Positions 26,289 to 54,591 of a DNA stretch of 64,000 bases are shown here, piece after piece. Position 1 is the first letter of the stretch. Each line of letters starts with the position of its first letter. The stretch is from an uncultured Kordia sp. (GTDB lineage: Bacteria; Bacteroidota; Bacteroidia; Flavobacteriales; Flavobacteriaceae), in assembly GCF_947489565.1 (NCBI RefSeq), contig NZ_CANLEA010000002.1, positions 248,001-312,000 of the forward strand, given 5' to 3'. The notes below the pieces were generated by a model. The model saw only the letters and a list, made by a program, of their open reading frames with translations, made no database searches and was not told the origin of the DNA. Made by a program: the position numbers and the translations under genes.

Positions 26289-26333
26289 TTTAATAATAAC
26301 GTAAATGAATTGGTTATCATATATTATTGTCAT

Positions 26334-26370
26334 AAAAAAAGCTTTCTACCATTATGGCAGAAAGCTTTTT
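26334..26370 (-). terminator. Terminator after gdhA
   Basis: AAAAAGCTTTCT paired with AGAAAGCTTTTT, with an inner CC/GG pair, then T-run on the minus strand. It lies 20 bp past the gdhA stop at 26392 and upstream of the porZ promoter. Confidence 0.88.
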
Positions 26371-26391
26371 GATATAATTTTAGATTTTTAA

Positions 26392-27735
26392 TTACACAAC
26401 TCCTTGTGCAATCATAGCATCGGCTACCTTTACAAAACCAGCAATGTTGGCTCCTTTCACATAATCGATAAATCCGTTTTCATCTTTTCCGTATTCTTCA
26501 CAAGCTTGGTGAATTTCACTCATGATTTGCTTTAATTTAGCATCAACTTCTTCACGTGTCCAGTTGTAACGTAATGAGTTTTGCGTCATTTCTAAACCAG
26601 AAGTTGCCACTCCACCAGCATTTGAAGCTTTTCCTGGAGCAAATAATATCTTGTTGTTTAAGAATACTTCTATAGCTTCTGGAGTAGAAGGCATGTTTGC
26701 TCCTTCACTCACACAAATACAACCATTACTTACTAATGTTTGCGCTTCCTCTCCATCTAATTCGTTTTGAGTTGCACATGGCAATGCTACATCACAGGCA
26801 ACACTCCAAGGTCTTTCTCCTTTGTGGAAAGTTGCTGAAGGATATTTTTCTGCGTATTCGTGAATTCTTCCTCTTTTTACATTTTTAAGCTCCATGATAA
26901 ATGCTAATTTCTCAGCATCAATTCCGTCAGCATCATGAATGTATCCTGAAGAATCAGACATCGTCACTACTTTTCCACCTAATTCTGTTGCTTTTTCAGC
27001 AGCGTATTGCGCTACATTTCCAGAACCAGAGACAGTTACTGTTTTTCCTTCAAAAGATGTTCCTCTTGTTCCTAACATACTTTGTGCAAAGTATACGTTT
27101 CCGTATCCTGTAGCTTCTGGACGAATTAAAGATCCTCCCCAAGTAATTCCTTTACCTGTAAGAACTCCTGTAAATTCGTTTCTTAATTTCTTATACATTC
27201 CAAACATATATCCAATCTCACGACCACCGACACCTATATCTCCGGCAGGAACGTCTGTGTTTGGTCCAATATGTCTGAATAACTCTGACATAAATGCTTG
27301 ACAGAAACGCATAATTTCTAAATCAGATTTTCCTTTTGGATTAAAATCCGATCCACCTTTTCCACCTCCCATAGGAAGTGTTGTTAAGCTATTTTTAAAT
27401 ACTTGCTCAAATGCTAAAAATTTAAGAATACTTAAGTTTACACTTGGGTGAAAACGCAATCCACCTTTATAAGGTCCAATAGCGGAATTCATTTCAATTC
27501 TATATCCGCGATTTACTTGAGTTTCTCCACTATCATCTACCCATTGAACTCTGAACATAATTACACGCTCAGGTTCTACCATTCTCTCAAGAATTTTAGT
27601 TCCTATATACTTTTCCTTACCTTCTATATAAGGGATTACAGCTTCTGCAACTTCCTGAACTGCTTGTAAAAATTCAGATTCATGTCCGTTTGTCTGCTTT
27701 ACCAAGTCTAAAAAGTCTTTTACTTTTGCTTCCAT
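26392..27735 (-). CDS. gdhA: Glutamate dehydrogenase, hexameric NADP type
   Basis: Makes glutamate from 2-oxoglutarate and ammonium with NADPH (reversible). The 447-residue length is that of small hexameric GDHs. The catalytic region is PMGGGKGGSDFNPKGKSD (about 119-136), with the active-site Lys in GGGKGG. The dinucleotide fold GSGNVAQYAAEKATELG begins near 236. KGGLRFHP and the C-terminal NAGGVATSGLEMTQNS are intact. NADP preference is inferred from similarity to the anabolic type. Monocistronic, with a promoter and terminator of its own. Together with gltBD and amtB it gives both ammonium assimilation routes in one window. Confidence 0.96.
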   Translation of the reverse strand: MEAKVKDFLDLVKQTNGHESEFLQAVQEVAEAVIPYIEGKEKYIGTKILERMVEPERVIMFRVQWVDDSGETQVNRGYRIEMNSAIGPYKGGLRFHPSVNLSILKFLAFEQVFKNSLTTLPMGGGKGGSDFNPKGKSDLEIMRFCQAFMSELFRHIGPNTDVPAGDIGVGGREIGYMFGMYKKLRNEFTGVLTGKGITWGGSLIRPEATGYGNVYFAQSMLGTRGTSFEGKTVTVSGSGNVAQYAAEKATELGGKVVTMSDSSGYIHDADGIDAEKLAFIMELKNVKRGRIHEYAEKYPSATFHKGERPWSVACDVALPCATQNELDGEEAQTLVSNGCICVSEGANMPSTPEAIEVFLNNKILFAPGKASNAGGVATSGLEMTQNSLRYNWTREEVDAKLKQIMSEIHQACEEYGKDENGFIDYVKGANIAGFVKVADAMIAQGVV

Positions 27736-43830: not shown

Positions 43831-45096
43831 TTAAACTAAGAATTGAAATAAATCGGGTTTATCATTTAAGTAGTCGCCGTAAAAGTTTCTTAATTTCATT
43901 TTTGTGATTAATGCGTCTAAATCTTCTGCATTTTTTAGCTGCAATCCTACGACTGCTGCGCCATTTTCACGATTGGTTTTTTTGGTATATTCAAAATGTG
44001 TGATGTCGTCTGTTGGCCCTAAAATTTCGACTACAAATTCGCGCAATGCACCTGCACGCTGTGGAAATTTGATAATGAAGTAATGCTTTAAGTTCGCATA
44101 CAACAATGCACGTTCTTTGATTTCGGCAGTTCGAGTAATATCGTTATTGCTTCCGCTTACAACACAGACTACATTTTTACCTTTAATTTCATTTTGATAT
44201 TGCGATAATGCACTTAAACTTAAAGCTCCTGCTGGCTCAACAACAATTGCTTGACGGTTGTATAAATCTAAAATAGTCTGACATACATTGCCTTCATCAA
44301 CCGTGATCATGTCCTGTAAATTTTCTTTACAGATGGCAAAATTCAAGTCGCCCACACGTTTTACCGCAGCACCATCCACAAAGTTTTCAATGTTTTTTAA
44401 CGTCGTATTTCTTTCTTTTTGAATAGACGTAGACATCGAAGGTGCGCCTTTTGGTTCTACTCCAATAATTTTTGTGTCTGGAGACAACATTTTGAACACC
44501 GAAGATAATCCTGCGGACAATCCGCCGCCGCCAACAGGCACAAATACATAATCGATTGGGTTTTCGAGTTGATTCAAAATTTCCAATCCAATCGTAGCTT
44601 GTCCTTCTATGACTTTTTCATCGTTAAACGGATGAATAAATGTTTTGTTCAAGCGTTCAGATTGCTCCATTGCCGCATGATATGCATCATCAAAGGTATC
44701 GCCAATCAAGACAACCTCAACATATGATTCTCCAAACATTTTGACTTGCTCAATTTTTTGATTTGGTGTTGGTGTCGGCATGAATATCGTTCCTTTTATT
44801 TGTAACAATTTGCACGACAAAGCCACGCCTTGTGCATGATTTCCAGCACTTACACACACAATTTCATTTTCAATTTGTGTCGCAGTTAAGGAAGCTATTT
44901 TATTGTACGCACCACGAATTTTATAGGAACGCACTTGTTGTAAATCTTCTCGTTTTAAGTAGATATTACAATTATATTGTTTTGAGTAGTAATCATTATA
45001 ACTCAAAGGCGTTACCGAAGCAATGCCTTTGAGTGTTGTCGCAGCCGTTTTAATGGCTGCTAACGTTGGAGCGTATGTTGTTGATGTTGTTGACAA
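43831..45096 (-). CDS. ilvA: Threonine dehydratase, biosynthetic
   Basis: PLP enzyme that deaminates threonine to 2-oxobutyrate, the entry to isoleucine. The PLP Lys lies in [10 protein letters not shown] (about 57-66); the phosphate-binding Gly-rich loop is VGGGGLSAG (about 190). After about 330 a single short ACT-like regulatory domain follows ([23 protein letters not shown]), as in the shorter, roughly 420-residue bacterial form, rather than the two-ACT 510-residue E. coli form. Isoleucine feedback is expected but not provable from sequence. It is separated from ilvC by a 537-bp gap. Confidence 0.95.
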
Positions 45097-45633: not shown

Positions 45634-47136
45634 CTAAGCCGTTACAAAGCTTTCTTTTTTAGCTTCCGTTTTAATAGTTTTCATCGCTGTCATTGCCGCT
45701 CGGAGTCGTTTTCCAACCGCTTCAATTGGATGATTTCTTATGGCGTCATTTACTTTAATTAAATCCAAGTTGTCTACACCATTTGATGCAGAAAATGGTT
45801 TTCCAATCACAGATGTATCCACAGTTTTCATAAAGTCTTTTAACAATGGTTTTGCTGCATGATCAAATAAGTAACAACCATATTCTGCTGTATCAGAAAT
45901 TACGCGATTCATTTCAAAAAGCTTCTTTCTCGCAATTGTGTTGGCGATTAATGGCAATTCATGTAACGATTCGTAATACGCAGAATCTTCTATAATTCCT
46001 GCATTTACCATGGTTTCAAACGCCAATTCCACACCCGATTTTACAAAAGCAACCAACAAGACACCATGATCAAAGTATTCTTGTTCCGAAATATGATCGG
46101 TTGTTAAGGCCGTTTTTTCAAAAGCAGTTTCGCCTGTTGCTGCACGCCATGTTAATAGATTTTTATCGTCATTTGCCCAATCTTCCATCATTGTTTTTGA
46201 GAAATGTCCCGAAATAATATCGTCCATATGTTTCTCAAATAATGGCTTCATGATCGTTTTTAATTCTTCAGAAAGTTCAAAAGCTTTAATTTTTGCTGGA
46301 TTCGATAAACGGTCCATCATATTGGTAATTCCGCCATGTTTCAACGCTTCCGTAATGGTTTCCCAACCTAACTGAATCAATTTTGCAGCATAATCGGCAT
46401 CCACACCATCTGCAACCATTTTATCAAAAGCCAAAATAGATCCTGTTTGTAACACTCCGCACAAAATGGTTTGTTCGCCCATTAAGTCACTTTTTACTTC
46501 TGCAATAAATGACGATGCCAAAACACCTGCTCTGTGTCCACCGGTTGCTACCGCATAGGCTTTTGCTTGATCCCAACCTTTGTTTTCTGGATCGTTTTCT
46601 GGATGCACTGCAATTAAGGTTGGCACACCAAATCCGCGCTTGTATTCTTCACGCACTTCCGTTCCTGGACATTTTGGTGCTACCATAATCACGGTGATAT
46701 CCTTACGAATTTCAGTGCCTTCTTCCACAATATTGAAACCATGCGAATAACTTAAGGTAGCTCCTTTTTTCATTAACGGCATCACCGCTTTTACCACATT
46801 TGTATGCTGTTTGTCTGGTGTAAGGTTTAAGACTAAATCGGCCGTTGGAATTAGCTGTTTGTAAGTTCCAACTTTAAAACCGTGTGAAGTTGCATTTTGG
46901 TATGAGTTGCGCTCTTCATCAATGGCTGCTTGACGCAATGCATATGAAATATCCAATCCTGAATCGCGCATGTTTAATCCTTGATTCAATCCTTGTGCAC
47001 CGCAACCGACAATGACTATTTTTTTATCTTTCAGCACTTTAACTCCGTCTGTAAATTCGGAAGCATCCATGAATCTACATTTTCCTAATTGTGCTAACTG
47101 TTCTCGTAATGATAGTGTATTGAAATAATTTGACAT
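45634..47136 (-). CDS. ilvC: Ketol-acid reductoisomerase, class II (long form)
   Basis: NADPH- and Mg-dependent isomerisation and reduction of acetolactate and acetohydroxybutyrate, the second common step of valine and isoleucine synthesis. The 500-residue length and a duplicated C-terminal knotted domain mark the long plant/E. coli-type class II form. The Rossmann loop is [18 protein letters not shown] (about 39-56); metal-binding acidic residues are in [11 protein letters not shown]. It lies 90 bp downstream of ilvN and ends the main ilv gene run, followed by element D. Confidence 0.96.
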
Positions 47137-47226: not shown

Positions 47227-47757
47227 TTAATGATCGATGGTTTTGAGTATGTTTGAAATTTTCATTTCTTCTTTAGAAACTGCAATGCGTCCTGAACGCG
47301 TAAATTGCATGATTCCAAAAACACTAAGTTCTCTATGTAATAATTCGATTTCTTCTTTGCGTCCCGATTTTTCTATGACAAAAAATTGTTTGTTTACCGT
47401 GACAATTCGTGCATTGCTATCTTTGATAATGTTTTGAATTTGACGTTCATCAAACAACAAGTCAGATTTCATTTTAAAAATGCAAGATTCTTGATAGATG
47501 ATTTCTGTTTCTGTGTGATAGTATGCTTTTATGACTTCAACTTGTTTTTCTATTTGACCGATGATTTTTTTCATTCGTTCTTCGGTAAGATTCACCACAA
47601 TAGTCCATTTAGAAACATTTTCAATTTCTGAAACAGACGAGTTAATGCTTTCAATATTGATATGTCTTCGCTGAAAGATTGCTGAAATTCTATTCAACAA
47701 TCCGATGTTATTTTCGGTATATACCGAAACCGTAAATTGTTTGAGTTCCTTTTCCAT
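47227..47757 (-). CDS. ilvN: Acetolactate synthase, small regulatory subunit
   Basis: Regulatory subunit that binds valine and activates the IlvB catalytic subunit. 176 residues, slightly longer than E. coli IlvH. The N-terminal ACT domain is FTVSVYTENNIGLLNRISAIFQRRHINIESINSS (about 8-41), with a conserved valine-binding loop NNIGLLNR. A second ACT-like domain follows from about residue 85. It lies 186 bp downstream of the ilvB stop, across element E. Confidence 0.93.
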   Translation of the reverse strand: MEKELKQFTVSVYTENNIGLLNRISAIFQRRHINIESINSSVSEIENVSKWTIVVNLTEERMKKIIGQIEKQVEVIKAYYHTETEIIYQESCIFKMKSDLLFDERQIQNIIKDSNARIVTVNKQFFVIEKSGRKEEIELLHRELSVFGIMQFTRSGRIAVSKEEMKISNILKTIDH

Positions 47758-47943: not shown

Positions 47944-49677
47944 TTAACTCAGTCTTATGTCTGAAACCGATGCTCCTGTTGGAATCATTGGAAATACGTT
48001 ATCTTCTTTTTCTACACAAACTTCTAGGAAGTACGCTTCTTTACTTTGCATCATTTCTGCAACAGCTTCCGCTAATTCCTCACGTTTGGTTACACGTCGT
48101 GCGTTTAAATGATAACCTTTGGCAATGGCTACAAAATCTGGATTTGTCATCTCAGTAGAGGCGTAACGTTTGTCAAAAAATAACTGTTGCCACTGACGTA
48201 CCATTCCTAAAAAGTCATTGTTTAACACCACAATTTTAACTGCCGCTCTTTGCTGAAAGATGGTTCCTAATTCTTGGATTGTCATTTGATAACCACCATC
48301 GCCACAAATACAAACTACTTCGCGTTCTGGTGCTGCCATTTTTGCTCCAATGGCTGCGGGTAATCCAAATCCCATCGTTCCTAATCCACCAGAAGTGATA
48401 TTACTTTTTGTTTGATTGAAATTTGCATAGCGACAGGCAATCATTTGATGCTGTCCAACATCGGAAACAATGGCAGCTTCTCCTTTGCTTTGTATATTGA
48501 TTTCTTTCAATACTTCGCCCATGGTTAGGCCTTCTTTGGTAGGATACAGGTCGTTTTTAATGACTTTTTCATATTCAATAGCATACAAATCATCAAAAGC
48601 GCGTCTCCAAATAGCGTGTTCATTTTTTTTGATTAATGGTAAAATTGCTGCTAAACTCTCTTTGGCATTCCCCAAAACGGCTACATTTGTTTTTACATTT
48701 TTATCAACTTCCGCAGGATCAATCTCGAAGTGAATCACTTTTGCTTGTTTGGCGTATGTGGCTAAATTTCCTGTTACACGATCATCGAAACGCATTCCGA
48801 TAGCAATTAATACATCGCACTCGTTCGTTAAAACATTTGGTGCGTAGTTTCCATGCATTCCCACCATTCCTACATTTAATGGATGTTCTGTTGGAATTGC
48901 AGAAACTCCTAAGATGGTCCATGCAGATGGAATTCCTGCTTTTTCTATAAAGTTTTTAAATTCTTGTTCTGCTTCACCCAAAATCACACCTTGTCCCCAA
49001 ACTACTAATGGTTTTTTAGCTGTATTGATCAATTTTGCAGCAGCTTTTAAAGAGTTTTCATCAGTTTTTGGTACTGCTTTGTAACTTCGAACACCTTTGC
49101 ATTTTTCATATGAAAAATCAAATTCTTCAAACTGTGCGTCTTTTGTAATGTCAATTAATACAGGACCTGGACGACCGCTTCTAGCAATATAAAATGCTTT
49201 TGCCATGACTTCCGGAATTTCAGAAGCTTTGGTAATTTGATGATTCCATTTGGTAACTGGTGTAGAAATTCCAACAATATCAGTTTCTTGGAATGCATCA
49301 CTTCCTAATAAATGTGAAGCCACTTGCCCTGTAATACAAACCATTGGCGTGGAATCGATTTGCGCATCGGCAATTCCTGTAATTAAATTTGTAGCTCCTG
49401 GACCTGATGTTGCAATGGCAACACCAACTTCTCCAGAGATTCGTGCATATCCTTGTGCTGCATGCGTAGCACCTTGTTCATGACGTGTTAATACATGATG
49501 AATTTTATCTTGGTATTTGTATAATTCGTCATATACTGGCATAATTGCTCCGCCAGGATATCCATATAATGTGTTTACACCTTCTGCTAATAAACAACGC
49601 ACAATAGCTTCGCTTCCTGTAAGGCGTTCTGTTTTTTGAAGTGTTTCTTTTGTTTTTTGTATGGTTTTTGTCTCCAT
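47944..49677 (-). CDS. ilvB: Acetolactate synthase, large catalytic subunit
   Basis: TPP- and FAD-dependent enzyme condensing pyruvate with pyruvate or 2-oxobutyrate. I start it at 49675-49677 (METKTIQKTKETL...), giving 577 residues; the longer frame would take its first 17 codons from a REP-like hairpin. GYPGGAIMPVYDEL (about 39) holds the region of the catalytic Glu, which is seen in RHEQGATHAAQGYAR. TPP binding is GDGGYQMTIQELGT (about 452) with NNDFLGMVRQWQ. It follows ilvD with a 53-bp gap containing a hairpin. Confidence 0.95.
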   Translation of the reverse strand: METKTIQKTKETLQKTERLTGSEAIVRCLLAEGVNTLYGYPGGAIMPVYDELYKYQDKIHHVLTRHEQGATHAAQGYARISGEVGVAIATSGPGATNLITGIADAQIDSTPMVCITGQVASHLLGSDAFQETDIVGISTPVTKWNHQITKASEIPEVMAKAFYIARSGRPGPVLIDITKDAQFEEFDFSYEKCKGVRSYKAVPKTDENSLKAAAKLINTAKKPLVVWGQGVILGEAEQEFKNFIEKAGIPSAWTILGVSAIPTEHPLNVGMVGMHGNYAPNVLTNECDVLIAIGMRFDDRVTGNLATYAKQAKVIHFEIDPAEVDKNVKTNVAVLGNAKESLAAILPLIKKNEHAIWRRAFDDLYAIEYEKVIKNDLYPTKEGLTMGEVLKEINIQSKGEAAIVSDVGQHQMIACRYANFNQTKSNITSGGLGTMGFGLPAAIGAKMAAPEREVVCICGDGGYQMTIQELGTIFQQRAAVKIVVLNNDFLGMVRQWQQLFFDKRYASTEMTNPDFVAIAKGYHLNARRVTKREELAEAVAEMMQSKEAYFLEVCVEKEDNVFPMIPTGASVSDIRLS

Positions 49678-49693
49678 CGTTTTATTTTTTTTA

Positions 49694-49717
49694 GATTCCT
49701 GCCTTCGCAGGAATGAC
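49694..49717. repeat. REP-like hairpin, copy 3, between ilvD and ilvB
   Basis: GATTCCTGCC-TTC-GCAGGAATGAC in the 53-bp gap between ilvD and ilvB inside the operon. Translation in one frame gives FLRRQES. Confidence 0.85.
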
Positions 49718-49730
49718 AAAAAAGTCAATT

Positions 49731-51410
49731 TTAGAATTCATCTGTTACGCAACCTTTGGAAGCCGATGAAACTGTTTTTGCATATTTGTATAATACACCG
49801 CGTTCAAATTTGAGTTCGGGTGCTTTCCATTGTTTTCTACGTTCTTGAAGTTCTTCTTCATAGACTTCCAATCGTATCGTGTTCGTTTCTGCATCAATTG
49901 TGATGATATCGCCATCTTTTACTAAAGCTAACGTTCCGCCTTCTTGTGCTTCTGGTGTAATGTGACCGACGACAAAACCATGTGTTCCTCCAGAAAATCG
50001 TCCATCTGTAATTAATGCCACATCTTTTCCTAAACCTGCGCCCATAATTGCGGCTGTTGGTTTAAGCATTTCTGGCATACCAGGTCCGCCTTTTGGTCCT
50101 TCATACCGAATGACGACGACATCTCCTTTTTCTACTTTTCCATCTCGGATTCCGTCATTGGCTTCATATTCTCCTTCGAAAACCTTGGCTTTCCCTGAGA
50201 ATGTTAATCCTTCTTTTCCTGTAATTTTTGCAACACTTCCTTCACTGGCTAGGTTTCCATACAGCATGCGTAAGTGTCCTGATATTTTTATTGGATTTTC
50301 TACTGGTTTGATCACATCTTGACCTTCCGTTAAATCATCTACATCTAATAAGTTTTCAGCAATGGTTTTTCCGGTAACGGTCATGCAATCGCCATGAATC
50401 AATCCTTTTTTGAGTAGATATTTTAGTACTGCTGGAATTCCACCAACCGCATGTACATCTTCCATTAAGTATTTTCCGCTTGGTTTTAAGTCTGCTAAAA
50501 ATGGTGTGGTATCACTTATTTTTTGAAAGTCTGCTAGTGTAAAATCAATTTGAGCTGCTCTAGCAATGGCCAAGAAGTGTAATACTGCATTGGTTGATCC
50601 GCCAAGAATTGTAACCAATCGCACTGCGTTTTCTAGAGATTTGCGTGTGATAATATCTGATGGTTTGATATCTTTTTCCAGTAATACACGCATGGCTTCA
50701 CCTGCGGCAACAGATTCTTGCTTTTTGGCATCACTCAACGCAGGATTTGACGAATTGAATGGCAAGGTCATTCCTAGTGCTTCTATAGCAGAAGCCATGG
50801 TATTTGCTGTATACATTCCGCCACAAGCGCCAGCACCTGGACATGCTTTTTCAACGATATTTTGATATTCTGTTTCGTCCATCGTACCAGCAACTTTGCT
50901 TCCCCAAGCTTCAAAGGCGGATACTACATCGAGTTTTTTTCCATTGTGACAACCTGAATCAATGGTTCCGCCATACACCAAAATACTTGGACGATCTAAG
51001 CGAATCATTGCCATGAGTGCACCTGGCATGTTTTTGTCACAACCAACAACTGTAATTAATCCGTCGTAACTCATCGCTTGCACCACCGTTTCCATAGAAT
51101 CGGCAATGATATCACGTGACGGTAATGAATAGCGCATTCCTGGTGTTCCCATAGAGATTCCATCACTTACACCAATCGTATTGAAAATCAACCCAACAAC
51201 GTCTTCATTTTTGGTTCCTTCTTTTGCCAGTTTCGCCAAATCATTCAAATGCATATTGCACGGATTTCCTTCGTAACCTGTACTTGCAATTCCGATGATG
51301 GGTTTGTAAAAGTCTTCTTTTGTCAATCCGATTGCATGCAACATTGCTTGCGCTGCAGGTTGCGTTGGATCTTGCGTGACTGTTTTACTGTATTTATTCA
51401 GATTGTTCAT
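49731..51410 (-). CDS. ilvD: Dihydroxy-acid dehydratase
   Basis: Iron-sulfur enzyme that dehydrates dihydroxyisovalerate and dihydroxymethylvalerate to the 2-oxo acids. 559 residues, normal for the family. Cluster-binding Cys are found in [11 protein letters not shown] (about 122), [16 protein letters not shown] (about 195) and an upstream NPCNMHL (about 53). The C-terminal signature [20 protein letters not shown] and the Ser in GCVTDEF region complete the picture. The three Cys pattern suggests a [2Fe-2S] enzyme, but cluster type is inferred. One base separates its start from the ilvE stop. Confidence 0.96.
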
Positions 51411-51411
51411 A

Positions 51412-52305
51412 TTATATTGCTTCTGATAATTTTTTTGAGCGTTCGCACAGTACTTCTTGTTTGTATAGCTTCATGAGTTTGTAACCCAAAGACGCTTCCC
51501 ACGAAAGTGGAAATTTATATGCATCTAATGATTCGAGTCCAACTACTTCTGCCGCCGTTCCGGTAAAGAATGCGCTGTCTGCTTGTTTGAGTTCGTCTAG
51601 TGTAAAATGCTTTTCTTCTACTGAAAATCCTTCTTCTTTACAGATTTCGAGAATTGTATCACGTGTAATTCCCGCCATAATGTGTCCACGTTTTGGCGTA
51701 TAGAGTTTGCCATCTTTTTCCATGAATACATTGGCGCCAGAACATTCTGCTACGTTTCCGTTCATGTCTAACAACAGAGCTTCGTCGTAACCTGCATTTT
51801 TTGCTTCATTGGTAGATAAGATGGAGTTTGTATAATGTCCCGTAACTTTTGCTTCTACAAAACATGATTTTGGATTTGGGCGTTGAAAACGAGATGTTTT
51901 TACTTTTAGAAGTTTGTCTCCCATATATTTTCCCCATTCCCAACACTGAATCGTTAAAAACGATTCTTCAGATGTAAGTAAGCTCATGTTCGCTCCCGTT
52001 GTTATAATTGGGCGAATGTACGCGTCTTGTAAGTTGTTTTTTTCTAATAATTTGTATGTGATATCCACTAATTCTTCAATGGAGTGATTGAACGGAATTC
52101 CCATGACCTCAGCGCCATATTGAAGGCGTTTGTAATGTGCTTCTGCTTTGAAGATTTTTGCACCAAATTTTGTTTTGTATGCTCTGATTCCTTCAAAAAC
52201 ACCATTTCCGTAGTGTAATGCTTGACTGTACATGTTTCCTGAAGCTTTTTCTGGATGCATGTATGTACCGTTGTGGTAAATGATACTGTCTTCTTTGTAA
52301 TACAT
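51412..52305 (-). CDS. ilvE: Branched-chain amino acid aminotransferase
   Basis: PLP class IV aminotransferase for the last step of Ile, Val and Leu synthesis with glutamate as donor. The 297-residue protein begins [16 protein letters not shown] and has [19 protein letters not shown] (about 27-45), the PLP-binding Lys in [15 protein letters not shown] (about 153) and [20 protein letters not shown] (about 178). It is the first gene of ilvE-D-B-N-C. Upstream lie two tandem leader-peptide attenuators (52594-52873), and 288 nt separate the second terminator from the start codon. Confidence 0.95.
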
Positions 52306-52593
52306 GTTTATTGTTATTATAATTCGAAATTAATTTTATTGTTCTTTTTTGTGTGTTCGATTTTGGTTATTTCACTAAAACCAATTGTTAATTTTTATAC
52401 TTAAATTACTGTTTATCAATATTTTAACTCTCACCAAATACAACACTCAACGTGTAAATTTTAATTGTATTTAGAAGCCATTTTTTTGATTTTAGCTTTT
52501 AGTTTCTATATAATGAGATCCCGCTCTACAGCGGGATTTGTTCAACTTGCAACTTTGAGTGCGCCTTTTAAGCTTCTCAAAGTTGAGTTTCAC
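52306..52593 (-). other. Leader region between the second attenuator and ilvE
   Basis: 288 nt, no gene. Two more hairpins are visible on the transcript: CAACTTTGAG (52550-52559) pairing with CTCAAAGTTG (52576-52585), just 8 nt after the terminator's T-run, and AATCCCGCT/AGCGGGAT around 52518-52538. The rest is A/T-rich and unstructured. No second promoter box was found. Confidence 0.6.
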
Positions 52594-52630
52594 AAAAAAA
52601 AGCCTGTATCGCAATTGATACAGGCTTTTT
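52594..52630 (-). terminator. Attenuator terminator 2 of the ilv operon
   Basis: Minus strand AAAAAGCCTGTATC pairs with GATACAGGCTTTTT (14 bp) around AATTGC, followed by a run of eight T. Its 5' side GTATCAATT (52621-52613) can instead pair with AGTTGATAC (52657-52649), nine pairs with one G-T, which would prevent termination. Confidence 0.88.
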
Positions 52631-52648
52631 GTTTTTATATAGCAAATC

Positions 52649-52668
52649 GTATCAACTCAGGTGGAGTT
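52649..52668 (-). promoter_or_regulatory. Protector/antiterminator segments 1 and 2 of attenuator module 2
   Basis: Segment 1 AACTC (52668-52664) and GAGTT (52658-52654) can form a small hairpin across the leader stop codon. Segment 2 AGTTGATAC (52657-52649) overlaps GAGTT and pairs with the terminator's 5' arm. The three mutually exclusive pairings follow the classical 1:2, 2:3, 3:4 layout of ribosome-mediated attenuation. Confidence 0.75.
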
Positions 52669-52713
52669 CATAATAATAATGACGATCACGATAATGCTAG
52701 TTATTTGATTCAT
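52657..52713 (-). CDS. ilv leader peptide 2, Ile/Val-rich
   Basis: An 18-codon frame, MNQITSIIVIVIIIMNST, from the ATG at 52711-52713 to TGA at 52659-52657. Eight successive codons (52695-52672) are Ile or Val, seven of the 18 residues being Ile and two Val. Ribosomes would stall here when charged tRNA-Ile or tRNA-Val is short. The stop codon abuts the antiterminator segment. It is too short for ordinary gene finding, but its content, place and the following terminator make a regulatory role very likely. No Leu codons are present. Confidence 0.87.
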   Translation of the reverse strand: MNQITSIIVIVIIIMNST

Positions 52714-52743
52714 TGTTTGTTGTTTGTTGTTTGTTGTTTGTTG
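52713..52743 (-). repeat. 7-bp tandem repeat (CAACAAA)n directly before leader 2
   Basis: Plus strand TTGTTTG repeated 4.4 times without error; the transcript reads CAACAAACAACAAACAA up to the ATG of leader peptide 2. Having no G or U, it cannot fold with itself, leaving the start site open for ribosomes. Confidence 0.9.
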
Positions 52744-52747
52744 AAAT

Positions 52748-52779
52748 AAAAAAAGCTTTCCGTTTATAGGAAAGCTTTT
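52748..52779 (-). terminator. Attenuator terminator 1 of the ilv operon
   Basis: Minus strand AAAAGCTTTCC pairs with GGAAAGCTTTT (11 bp, loop TATAAAC), then seven T. Its 5' arm AGCTTTCCT (52776-52768) can instead pair with AGGAATGCT (52811-52803), eight pairs with one T-T mismatch, just after the stop of leader peptide 1. Confidence 0.82.
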
Positions 52780-52802
52780 AAATTTATAGTGAAATTATAT
52801 AT

Positions 52803-52838
52803 AGCATTCCTTATCGTTGTGAGCGAATCACAATGACA
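52803..52838 (-). promoter_or_regulatory. Hairpin and antiterminator segment of attenuator module 1
   Basis: TTGTGA-TTCGC-TCACAA forms a 6-bp hairpin over the last leader codons, and AGGAATGCT (52811-52803) overlapping the stop codon is complementary to the 5' arm of terminator 1. The TTGTGA hairpin does not include segment 2, so the exact protector pairing in this module is unclear. Confidence 0.6.
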
Positions 52839-52873
52839 TTAATAGCAATGATATTTATAATTTGTTTGTTCAT
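52811..52873 (-). CDS. ilv leader peptide 1, Ile/Val-rich
   Basis: A 20-codon frame, MNKQIINIIAINVIVIRSQR, from the ATG at 52871-52873 to TAA at 52813-52811. Seven residues are Ile and two Val. It shares the start MN(K)Q-I with leader peptide 2 and precedes its own terminator, so the two modules look like diverged copies or parallel inventions. The closest -7-like box is AATCTTTG at 52890-52883, one base off TAnnTTTG, which would give an almost leaderless transcript. Confidence 0.82.
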   Translation of the reverse strand: MNKQIINIIAINVIVIRSQR

Positions 52874-52882
52874 TTGTTATAC

Positions 52883-52890
52883 CAAAGATT
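52883..52890 (-). promoter_or_regulatory. Weak candidate -7 element of the ilv operon
   Basis: Minus strand AATCTTTG differs from TAnnTTTG only in its first base. It lies 10 bp before the ATG of leader peptide 1. No -33 TTG is visible at the usual spacing, so this is uncertain. Confidence 0.3.
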
Positions 52891-53002
52891 GTAAAAGTTT
52901 TTTTAGATTCCTAATTTGATGTTGAAAAAAGTTGTTGTTTTTTTCTGTCTTTGCAGGGGAATGTGATTTTTTTTATAAATGTATTTTCTACAATTTAGCA
53001 TT

Positions 53003-53080
53003 AATGTCACTTCAAGCGCAGTCGAGAAGTTTTAACTGTAAAGATTTTCAAATAAATCTCGACTGCGCTCGATTTGACAA
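53003..53080. repeat. Intergenic inverted repeat, GAGCGCAGTCGA family, second copy
   Basis: AATGTCACTTCAAGCGCAGTCGAGA and TCTCGACTGCGCTCGATTTGACA face each other around a 26-base loop, 45 bp after the gltD stop. It is the same family as 940-1016. Confidence 0.8.
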
Positions 53081-53124
53081 TCGAATTTTACTATATTTTT
53101 AATTACTTCGTTCACATCATTAAT

Positions 53125-54591
53125 TTATACTCGCGGCAAATCACTTTCATCTTTTAACGGAAGATTGGAAGTTCCCATTAAATACGCATCTACATGATGT
53201 GCTGCTTGGCGACCTTCTGAGATTGCCCAAACGATTAAGGATTGCCCTCTGCGCATGTCGCCAGCCGTAAAGATTCCCGATTTGTTGGTTGCATAGTTTT
53301 TAGTTGTCGCTTTGATGTTGCTTCTGAAATCCATTTCCAATCCAAATTCATCTGCCAATGTTTTTTCGGCACCTGTGAAACCTAAAGCCAATAATACCAA
53401 ATCGCATTCCCAGAGTTTTTCTGTGTTTGGAATTTCTTGTAATTGCGGACGTTCGCCTTCTTTGAAAATCCATGCTACTTCCACCGTTTTTAAACCTGTG
53501 AGATTTCCATTGACATCACTGATAAATTTCTTTGTTGCAATGCTAAAGAAACGTTTTACACCTTCTTGATGCGATGAAGTTTCTTTGAGTTTCATAGGCC
53601 AATACGGCCACGGTTGATGCGCAGGACGACCAAGAGTTGGCTTGCTTAATATTTCAAAGTTTGTTACTGATACTGCACCATGACGATTGCTTGTTCCGAT
53701 ACAATCCGAACCTGTATCGCCACCGCCAATGACAATGACTTTTTTACCTTTTGCTGAGATGATATCTTCAAAGTTCAGCAATCCATCCACATATTGATTG
53801 TTTTGCTTTAGAAAATCCATCGCTTGATGCACACCTTTTGCGTCTGCACCATCAATAGGAAGTGTACGTCGAATGGTGGCGCCACCACATAATACTACTG
53901 CATCAAAGTCTTCTTCTAGTTGTTTTGCATTTATATTGACACCAACATGCGCATTTGTTTTAAAAGTAATGCCTTCTTCTTCTAAAATTTCTAAACGTCT
54001 GTCAATGATGTGTTTTTCCATTTTAAAGTCTGGAATTCCATAGCGTAATAAACCGCCAACTTTTCCATCGCGTTCAAAAACAGTTACGTTATGACCTGCG
54101 CGATTGAGTTGTTGTGCTGCTGCTAATCCTGCAGGTCCAGAACCCACAATGGCAACAGATTTCCCAGTTCTTACTTTTGGCGGATTTGCAGTGATCCAGC
54201 CTTCTTTAAAAGCCGTCTCAACAATATTTTTTTCTATGTTTTCTATACTTACAGGATCTTCATTGATTCCCAACACACAGGCTTCTTCACAAGGCGCAGG
54301 ACACAATCGACCTGTAAATTCAGGAAAGTTGTTTGTGGCATGTAAAATTTCTGCTGCTGCTTTCCATTTCCCACGATAGACTTTGTCATTAAAATCAGGA
54401 ATTAGATTCCCAAGTGGACAACCACTATGACAAAAAGGAATTCCACAATCCATACAACGCGCACCTTGATCTTCGAGTTTAGATTTTTGCAGTGCAATTG
54501 TAAATTCTTTATAGTTTTTGATACGTTCTACTGGAGTTTCATACGCTTCATCTTGGCGTTTATGCTCCATAAATCCTGTTATTTTTCCCAT
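53125..54591 (-). CDS. gltD: Glutamate synthase, small (beta) subunit
   Basis: FAD- and NADPH-binding subunit that passes electrons to the large subunit for glutamate synthesis from glutamine and 2-oxoglutarate. 488 residues. N-terminal Fe-S Cys clusters are CMDCGIPFCHSGCPLGN (about 42-58) and LCPAPCEEACVLG (about 96-108). The FAD fold is GSGPAGLAAAQQLNRAGH (about 150) and the NADPH fold is VIGGGDTGSDCIGTS (about 290). Three bases separate its start from the gltB stop: one operon, gltB first. Confidence 0.96.
   Translation of the reverse strand: MGKITGFMEHKRQDEAYETPVERIKNYKEFTIALQKSKLEDQGARCMDCGIPFCHSGCPLGNLIPDFNDKVYRGKWKAAAEILHATNNFPEFTGRLCPAPCEEACVLGINEDPVSIENIEKNIVETAFKEGWITANPPKVRTGKSVAIVGSGPAGLAAAQQLNRAGHNVTVFERDGKVGGLLRYGIPDFKMEKHIIDRRLEILEEEGITFKTNAHVGVNINAKQLEEDFDAVVLCGGATIRRTLPIDGADAKGVHQAMDFLKQNNQYVDGLLNFEDIISAKGKKVIVIGGGDTGSDCIGTSNRHGAVSVTNFEILSKPTLGRPAHQPWPYWPMKLKETSSHQEGVKRFFSIATKKFISDVNGNLTGLKTVEVAWIFKEGERPQLQEIPNTEKLWECDLVLLALGFTGAEKTLADEFGLEMDFRSNIKATTKNYATNKSGIFTAGDMRRGQSLIVWAISEGRQAAHHVDAYLMGTSNLPLKDESDLPRV

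Follow-up and report, generated by a model that had tools for sequence, protein, structure and literature searches.

As judged from its sequence, the ilv operon of an uncultured Kordia sp. is very probably controlled by two ribosome-mediated transcription attenuators, which would lie in series in one leader RNA and depend on one promoter. Single leader-peptide attenuation in flavobacteria has been reported already; the placing in series of attenuators with the same signal appears to be new.

Anatomy of the ilv leader

The locus belongs to contig NZ_CANLEA010000002.1, of which a stretch of 64,000 nt (the window) was analysed. All coordinates are those of the window, and the leader is read on its minus strand. 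We confirmed that two complete predicted leader-peptide attenuators precede ilvE-D-B-N-C and ilvA in series. The operon, likewise on the minus strand, begins with an ilvE-like gene for a class IV aminotransferase (51412-52305; Pfam Aminotran_4). It is followed by ilvD (49731-51410; ILVD_EDD domains), ilvB (47944-49728; TPP_enzyme N, M and C domains, start codon uncertain), ilvN (47227-47757; ALS_ss_C and ACT), ilvC (45634-47136; KARI_N and KARI_C) and, as a putative member, the threonine dehydratase gene ilvA (43831-45096; PALP and Thr_dehydrat_C, start codon uncertain). The gene upstream of the leader (53125-54591, same strand) contains Pfam domains Fer4_20 and Pyr_redox_2, and we take it to be glutamate-synthase-like by name.

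The first module (A) starts with ORF1 (52811-52873), which encodes a putative leader peptide of 20 amino acids, MNKQIINIIAINVIVIRSQR, with Ile or Val at 9 of 20 codons. The second module (B) starts with ORF2 (52657-52713), encoding 18 amino acids, MNQITSIIVIVIIIMNST, with Ile or Val at 9 of 18 codons. Both ORFs are conserved in relatives. Each is followed by a terminator: T1 (52751-52779) consists of AAAAGCTTTCC/GGAAAGCTTTT forming 11 pairs and a T-run, and T2 (52597-52630) is a strong hairpin, AAAAAGCCTGTATC/GATACAGGCTTTTT, also with a T-run. T2 was listed on the plus strand by the terminator scan, and the same hairpin with T-run is equally present on the minus strand. Within 52300-53300, T1 and T2 are the only terminators found.

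In each module, a short antiterminator segment (region 2) can pair with the 5' arm of the terminator. That of module A, GGAATGCTAT (52801-52810), adjoins the stop codon of ORF1, and GGAA.GCT within it can pair with the T1 arm. That of module B, GTTGATAC (52649-52656), pairs with GTATCAA of T2 through TTGATAC (52655-52649), one base past the ORF2 stop. Each ORF also encodes its own sequestering segment, able to hold region 2 in a 1:2 pairing. In module A this is the minimum free energy fold of 52801-52854, where ATATCATT (52854-52847) pairs with AATGCTAT and further pairings are GTC/GAT and TTGTGA (52833-52828)/TCACAA (52822-52817). In module B, a hairpin spans the stop codon (52654-52668; AACTC 52668-52664 with GAGTT 52658-52654).

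The earlier note had described two tandem modules here, each with an Ile/Val-rich ORF, a terminator and an antiterminator segment. This description stands, with coordinates of ORFs and terminators right to a few bases, both modules being read on the minus strand and shuffled sequences giving none comparable. An ATG-initiated ORF of 12-20 codons with at least 9 Ile/Val occurred in 0 of 1000 dinucleotide shuffles of 52590-52880, and a terminator of -12 kcal/mol or lower with T-run in 0 of 200. Folding z-scores are -5.8 for 52745-52873 and -5.3 for 52590-52712.

At gathering score, Rfam 15 gave no match in the leader, neither to T-box nor to any other Rfam leader, and the covariance model of Bacteroid-trp RNA (RF01692) had no match in the window. 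The sole Rfam match of the window is a DUF805b RNA (RF02914; 41630-41669, plus strand, 40.3 bits).

Between T2 and ilvE, the stretch 52480-52595 holds two stable hairpins, and a part of it has three more partial copies in the genome (78-81% over ~75 nt); it is probably a dispersed repeat. An inverted repeat, GAGCGCAGTCGAG/CTCGACTGCGCTT (53070-53014), lies between the upstream gene and the predicted promoter, and a similar word was noticed by eye in the spacer of leader L010.

Two module families in Flavobacteriaceae

IlvE was detected in ten of 11 genomes from the window's genus, and all ten carry both ORFs and both terminators. The conservation that the earlier note had expected from an alignment of relatives is borne out: ORFs, Ile/Val codons, terminators and antiterminators are kept in these ten genomes and also in other genera. 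The spacer that separates the second ORF from the T1 hairpin, in contrast, varies in length, from 37 to 318 nt in the genus and from 10 to 318 nt among the 24 tandem leaders.

Distribution in the family was examined in 198 Flavobacteriaceae genomes, about one per genus. IlvE recovered 10 of 199 family genomes at 1e-90, too few for it to be the only anchor. IlvD, used instead, was found in 152 of the 198, and leaders of 113 of these were examined; L057 was left out, as its contig ends after 30 nt. Detected modules fall into two families. Module A has an ORF like MKKQILNIISIIVIVIISQG, a terminator core AAGCCTTCC/GGAAGGCTT and a region 2, GGAATGGTAT, close to the stop codon. Module B has an ORF like MNKTIISIIVIIIMNST or one ending in IVP, a terminator core AAGCCTGTATC/GATACAGGCTT and a region 2, TGATACAG, at or across the stop. 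An origin of A and B by duplication could not be shown, because cross-matches between them were no better than noise.

By script, 34 of the 113 leaders have A only, 17 have B only, 16 have A followed by B and 45 have none; one more has three modules on inspection. In this count, L099 was moved by inspection from A+B to B-only, since its module A call lay in presumed coding sequence. The detector also misses some modules: L021 (G100) and L272 each carry a second one that it overlooked. Triple modules were observed before an ilvE-like gene in L019 (last 470 nt of the leader) and in L191 (about 300-720, oriented). In both, the last two modules are almost copies of each other and share a terminator core, so that private pairing codes fail between those two.

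Covariance models comprising the 1:2 and 3:4 helices were built from 56 module A rows (R1) and 35 module B rows (R2); rows were confined to modules with ORFs of 12-26 codons ending less than 70 nt before the terminator. At a cut-off of E<=1e-5 (E-values are rough), R1 was found in 65, R2 in 38 and both in 20 of the 198 family genomes. In G202 both models match one single module, which leaves 19 tandem genomes, one of them triple (G103). In all 19, R1 lies upstream of R2 before ilv genes, as judged by eye. Genomes with R2 alone number 18, all with R2 before ilvD (by eye). The 39 R2 places are all found in the 350 nt upstream of the ilvD or ilvE match in the same genome (by eye), including 12 places in 11 genomes absent from the R2 building set. 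R1 is not specific to ilv at this cut-off: by eye, 61 of 76 places precede ilvD or ilvE and 15 lie elsewhere. Seven of these 15 were fetched, and downstream of them are an amidase-like/GatB-like gene pair (5), an aspartokinase-like gene (1) and an ilvA-like gene (1). The models cover leaders of a kind for which Rfam 15 reports nothing in the window.

Weaker matches were set aside. R1 also matches window positions 26332-26462 (40.5 bits) with many broken pairs, weak R1 and R2 matches in the window to the opposite strand or the other module were rejected, and order-wide lists at E<=0.01 contain many weak matches.

The existence of single-module leaders might mean that only the ilv-proximal module regulates, module A being a relic or mainly ending transcription from the glutamate-synthase-like gene. 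The latter is on the same strand as the leader, and T1 and T2 are the only terminators found behind it; 8 of 24 tandem leaders, of which 7 belong to the window's genus, and 6 of 32 A-only leaders have the same gene end upstream. Within 900 nt upstream of 16 of the 24 tandem and 26 of the 32 A-only leaders, however, it was not found. Moreover, ORF A, its hairpin, its terminator and its promoter motif recur in the 19 tandem genomes, almost every one from a different genus. Module A can also stand alone: R1 without any R2 match was found in 45 of the 198 genomes, lying before ilvD in 41 and only elsewhere in 4 (by eye). We therefore consider a dispensable module A improbable and regard both modules as regulatory elements of the ilv operon, very probably.

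Named organisms were surveyed at the best 80 of at least 539 confirmed IlvE loci. In these 80, the detector found two modules at 51 loci, three at 1, one at 19 and none at 9. The three-module locus is L293 of Fluviicola, where one module looks spurious. Among the best 80, two modules are present at 9 of 9 Kordia-labelled loci (one of which, NORP58, stands apart from other Kordia on the IlvE tree), at 8 of 8 Gelidibacter and at 29 of 30 Tenacibaculum loci; the thirtieth, L272, shows both by eye. Kordia algicida OT-1 (L224) is a carrier of the tandem. In the same set, none of 6 Winogradskyella loci has two modules, and all 7 loci labelled as Chitinophagales, Chitinophagaceae, Lacibacter, Pseudobacter or Terrimonas carry a single one. 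The state "two or more" versus "fewer" modules requires 8 changes on a quick tree of IlvE. In the wider order, at least two modules are present in 13 of 20 stretches, a non-random sample picked for adjacent or strong model matches.

RNA pairing, predicted switching and initiation

Alignments of the two families support the sequestering and terminator helices. In 56 module A sequences, the T1-type helix is 96.6% paired, the outer 1:2 helix 68.5% and the inner one 83.7%, the last having 8 of 9 pairs changed on both sides. Taken together, 84.1% of 1:2 and 3:4 cells are paired, versus 39-51% in slid controls. In 35 module B sequences, the T2-type helix is 99.7% paired and the hairpin over the stop codon 89.1%, with both-sided changes at 3 of 5 pairs; jointly, 96.4% of cells are paired versus 22-47% in slid controls. 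Covariation scores, in which the structures are favoured by having been taken from the window's own sequence, exceed those of 500 of 500 shuffles in both modules. The same is true in module A for the numbers of paired and of both-sided-changed cells. In 104 of 500 shuffles, at least as many module A pairs have a both-sided change (16 of 26 in the alignment), and module B has no excess of further pair types (443 of 500 shuffles reach its number).

The alternative 2:3 pairing is kept in position with little covariation, because its segments vary too little. In module A, 77.2% of its cells are paired versus 41-66% in slid and 76.8% in shuffled alignments (172 of 500 as high), and slid versions give as many or more both-sided changes. 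In module B, 93.1% are paired versus 15-45% in slid and 91.4% in shuffled alignments (34 of 500 as high). In tandem leaders, region 2 pairs better with its own terminator arm than with that of the other module; this is true of module A in 23 of 24 (the exception is L020) and of module B in all 24.

Region 2 was recognisable in 50 of 56 module A rows and 34 of 36 module B rows; its median distance from the last Ile/Val codon is 13 nt in the former and 14 nt in the latter. The proposal that this stall-codon distance is better conserved than the distance from the stop codon failed, as it is not clearly more constrained.

Switching was computed with a model in which the leading edge of the ribosome is assumed to reach 13 nt beyond the start of the A-site codon. 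A ribosome halted at the last Ile/Val codon raises the computed probability of the 2:3 pairing, taken before the 3' arm of the terminator is made, in 52 of the 56 A modules and in all 35 B modules; with the ribosome so halted, this probability exceeds 0.5 in 46 of 56 and 35 of 35, respectively. In the window, it increases from 0.23 to 0.84 in module A and from 0.04 to 0.85 in module B, and a ribosome at the stop codon is computed to cover region 2 in both. By computation, the leader therefore has the features of an attenuator: a 2:3 pairing that is exposed by a stalled ribosome and covered by one at the stop, and a sequestering 1:2 pairing. Without ribosome, the mean probability of the 1:2 pairing is 0.43 in A and 0.57 in B, and 23 of the 56 A and 10 of the 35 B modules already have a 2:3 probability above 0.5, so that default termination is not certain in every relative.

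Flavobacterial promoters have a -7 box TAnnTTTG at -12 to -5 (PMC9723704). In the window, a Bacteroidota sigma-A promoter is predicted by motif at 52883-52914 on the minus strand. It comprises a -33-like TTAG (52914-52911), a variant of TTG, and a -7 box of the relaxed form, AATCTTTG (52890-52883), and places the RNA start near 52878, ~5 nt before ORF1. Of 55 leaders with ORF A, 31 A-only and 24 tandem, 40 have the relaxed box ([TA]AnnWTTG) ahead of this ORF (21 and 19, respectively), and in 25 of these 40 a TTG or TAG stands 20 nt before the box. The strict box (TAnnWTTG) is present before ORF A in 13 of 55 (8 of 31 A-only, 5 of 24 tandem). The usual gap between box and ATG is 9-10 nt, which again puts the RNA start ~5 nt before ORF A.

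An arrangement with two promoters, each module being on its own transcript and the gates parallel rather than serial, would require a second promoter ahead of ORF B. The spacer could hold one in 12 of 24 tandems, where it is at least 44 nt long (9 of these are of the window's genus). The relaxed box, however, precedes ORF B in none of the 24 tandems (1 of 25 with L099 left in), versus 10 of 12 B-only leaders; control windows contain it in 3.5-14% of cases. With the window's genus left out, it is found in tandems before ORF A in 9 of 14 and before ORF B in 0 of 14. The strict box precedes ORF B in 8 of 11 B-only and 1 of 25 tandem leaders as counted prior to the move of L099. Fisher values for the contrast (7e-9 and 3e-7) overstate the case, because related rows are not independent. 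The spacer is also only 10-23 nt in 11 of 24 tandems, too short for a promoter there, and that of the window consists of 37 nt of T-run and CAA/CAAA stretch. Parallel transcripts are thus highly improbable. The earlier note had named a transcription start downstream of 52748 as evidence that would speak against tandem attenuation; motif evidence points to none, as no promoter motif was found just before the second ORF in the 24 tandem leaders. Our preferred reading remains that of two gates in series on one transcript.

On this single transcript, ORF1 would begin ~5 nt from the predicted 5' end and ORF2 would be entered internally without a Shine-Dalgarno sequence. Shine-Dalgarno-like tetramers were found before 0 of 55 ORFs of module A, 1 of 24 tandem ORFs B and 0 of 12 B-only ORFs. 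Among the 10 B-only leaders having a box, 8 show a gap of only 3-5 nt between box and ATG, and these ORFs would be leaderless; TTG or TAG stands 20 nt ahead of the box in 4 of 9 B-only leaders. The leaders may therefore offer a system of predicted near-leaderless and internally initiated leader ORFs lacking Shine-Dalgarno sequences. The CAA/CAAA repeat of the window lies at 52743-52714, immediately ahead of ORF2, and similar repeats are seen before ORF B in L008 and L011; possibly, it is an unstructured ribosome entry site.

Proposed serial attenuation by one signal

We propose that in each module a ribosome would read the short ORF rich in Ile and Val codons. With charged tRNA-Ile and tRNA-Val plentiful, it would reach the stop codon and cover region 2, the 3:4 terminator would form and polymerase would stop. 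A ribosome stalled on an Ile or Val codon would leave region 2 free to pair with the 5' arm of its own terminator, allowing readthrough. With no ribosome, region 2 would be held by the RNA of the ORF (1:2) and the terminator would form, which is predicted for the window's modules and not for every relative. Polymerase would have to clear both gates. If they are independent, overall readthrough would be the product Q1 x Q2 and logarithmic sensitivities would add, the overall sensitivity amplification being their sum. Of the two consequences suggested in the earlier note, the steeper response would follow provided that the two readthrough probabilities multiply.

The other, a response with two thresholds, finds no support. 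The modules could be tuned to different amino acids or degrees of starvation, as they are of two different families with different initiation contexts, ORF A being near the predicted RNA 5' end and ORF B internal. Their codons argue against this: over the 24 tandems, ORF A contains on average 6.2 Ile and 2.2 Val and ORF B 6.8 and 1.9, with 0.6 and 0.4 Leu. Since the two ORFs are nearly equal in make-up, nothing points to a distinct threshold for each amino acid, and a two-threshold sensor appears unlikely. A main action in trans of terminated leader RNAs or peptides, with attenuation in cis secondary, is even less credible and extremely improbable. Two short RNAs would indeed arise from the leader, and an attenuator leader peptide with activity in trans has been reported for Sinorhizobium (PMC7298713). 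Conservation, however, resides in cis elements (start, region 2 and terminator arms), and the peptides differ between genera. Two serial gates in cis, both answering to Ile and Val, thus remain the reading that we favour.

Classical leader-peptide (ribosome-mediated) attenuators are those of ilvGMEDA and of the trp and his operons of enterobacteria. The Kordia leader resembles them in its ORFs with regulatory codons, its 1:2, 2:3 and 3:4 alternatives, its intrinsic terminators and the biosynthetic operon downstream. It differs in having two full copies in series with different terminator sequences, and in ORF1, which is predicted to be nearly leaderless and has no visible Shine-Dalgarno sequence.

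Textbook attenuation relies on one sensor for each operon. A single attenuator is called normal, and the tandem of Salmonella mgtCBR, with its two signals, singular (PMC3641672). Like the Kordia leader, mgtCBR has a leader RNA with a pair of short regulatory ORFs, which answer to ATP and proline (PMC3641672). Both Kordia ORFs, in contrast, are rich in Ile and Val, and a separate terminator follows each. Two different signals, as in mgtCBR, are not apparent from the near-equal Ile/Val make-up of the Kordia ORFs. In the same account, metE, unlike mgtCBR, has two terminator sites (PMC3641672). The tandem riboswitches of Bacillus clausii metE are likewise two serial sensing modules with a terminator each; they differ from the ilv leader in that RNA binds its ligands directly and the two ligands are different (PMC3641672). 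In the rimP-leader of several Gammaproteobacteria, the first terminator is preceded by a second one in tandem, and a potential antiterminator is present; the genes and the phylum are other ones, and the passage describing them mentions no amino-acid leader peptides (PMC2965389).

Within Bacteroidota, a study of Flavobacterium psychrophilum reports "strong clues" that leader peptides attenuate its amino-acid operons (PMC9723704). This bacterium is of the same family and, as here, the leader peptide precedes biosynthesis operons; the passages on it name no operon, and "ilv" and "isoleucine" are absent from the main text (PMC9723704). Short ORFs resembling leader peptides are mentioned for Bacteroides (PMC7366714). 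Bacteroid-trp RNA (RF01692), described as cis-regulatory in Bacteroidota and linked to trp by its name (PMC2864571), is the family that had no match in the window. In the open-access literature that was searched, we found neither tandem leader-peptide attenuators with the same signal nor ilv leaders of Bacteroidota, which does not establish their absence from print.

On balance, we lean towards the view that serial attenuation by one signal is a stable architecture of branched-chain amino acid operons in Flavobacteriales. Such leaders would have two to three gates behind one promoter and, where gates are two, private pairing codes that keep them from cross-reacting; the first gate would be loaded with ribosomes near the 5' end and the next one internally without Shine-Dalgarno sequence, and gate number would act as a gain setting. 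Because related genomes have one, two or three ilv gates, a conserved series with the same signal would provide a natural test of regulatory gain. Sensitivity amplification, a logarithmic measure of response, has been analysed for single attenuators (PMC1183508), and it should add across gates if these are independent.

Tandem structure is not a habit of all attenuators of this genome, since its his leader, MSYTQLHHHHFHTCPQAS, before HisG and its trp leader, MYKNLVNTWWWNLRTSES, before anthranilate synthase component I (the pair L218/L222) are single modules with terminator. At its two ThrA-like loci, the script revealed no clear attenuator.

Several further leaders were noticed in relatives. 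A single Ile-rich leader (MTNFNNIIIAIISIIAIQQ and alike) occurs in L194, L197, L200 and L310 before a PALP-domain gene (Pfam scan on L194 and L193 only) that is a threonine dehydratase by its start; the first gene of L192 had no Pfam match at 1e-5. Two of the genomes with the Ile-rich leader, G356 and G224, have separate leaders before ilvD as well. L308 contains a leader, MKHIITNTTTTTTGTS, with terminator upstream of an aspartokinase-type gene (Pfam). Finally, L304 (310-412), L305, L306, L307 and L309 share a leader ORF with seven successive Asn codons (M, one residue, NNNNNNNFNNP..) and a terminator core CCTTCC/GGAAGG or GGAGGG, located before amidase-like (GatA-like) and GatB-like genes. 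This arrangement is present in all five fetched matches of 107-111 nt (Pfam on L304 only), and it is a candidate for an attenuator that senses Asn-tRNA and controls tRNA-dependent asparagine synthesis.
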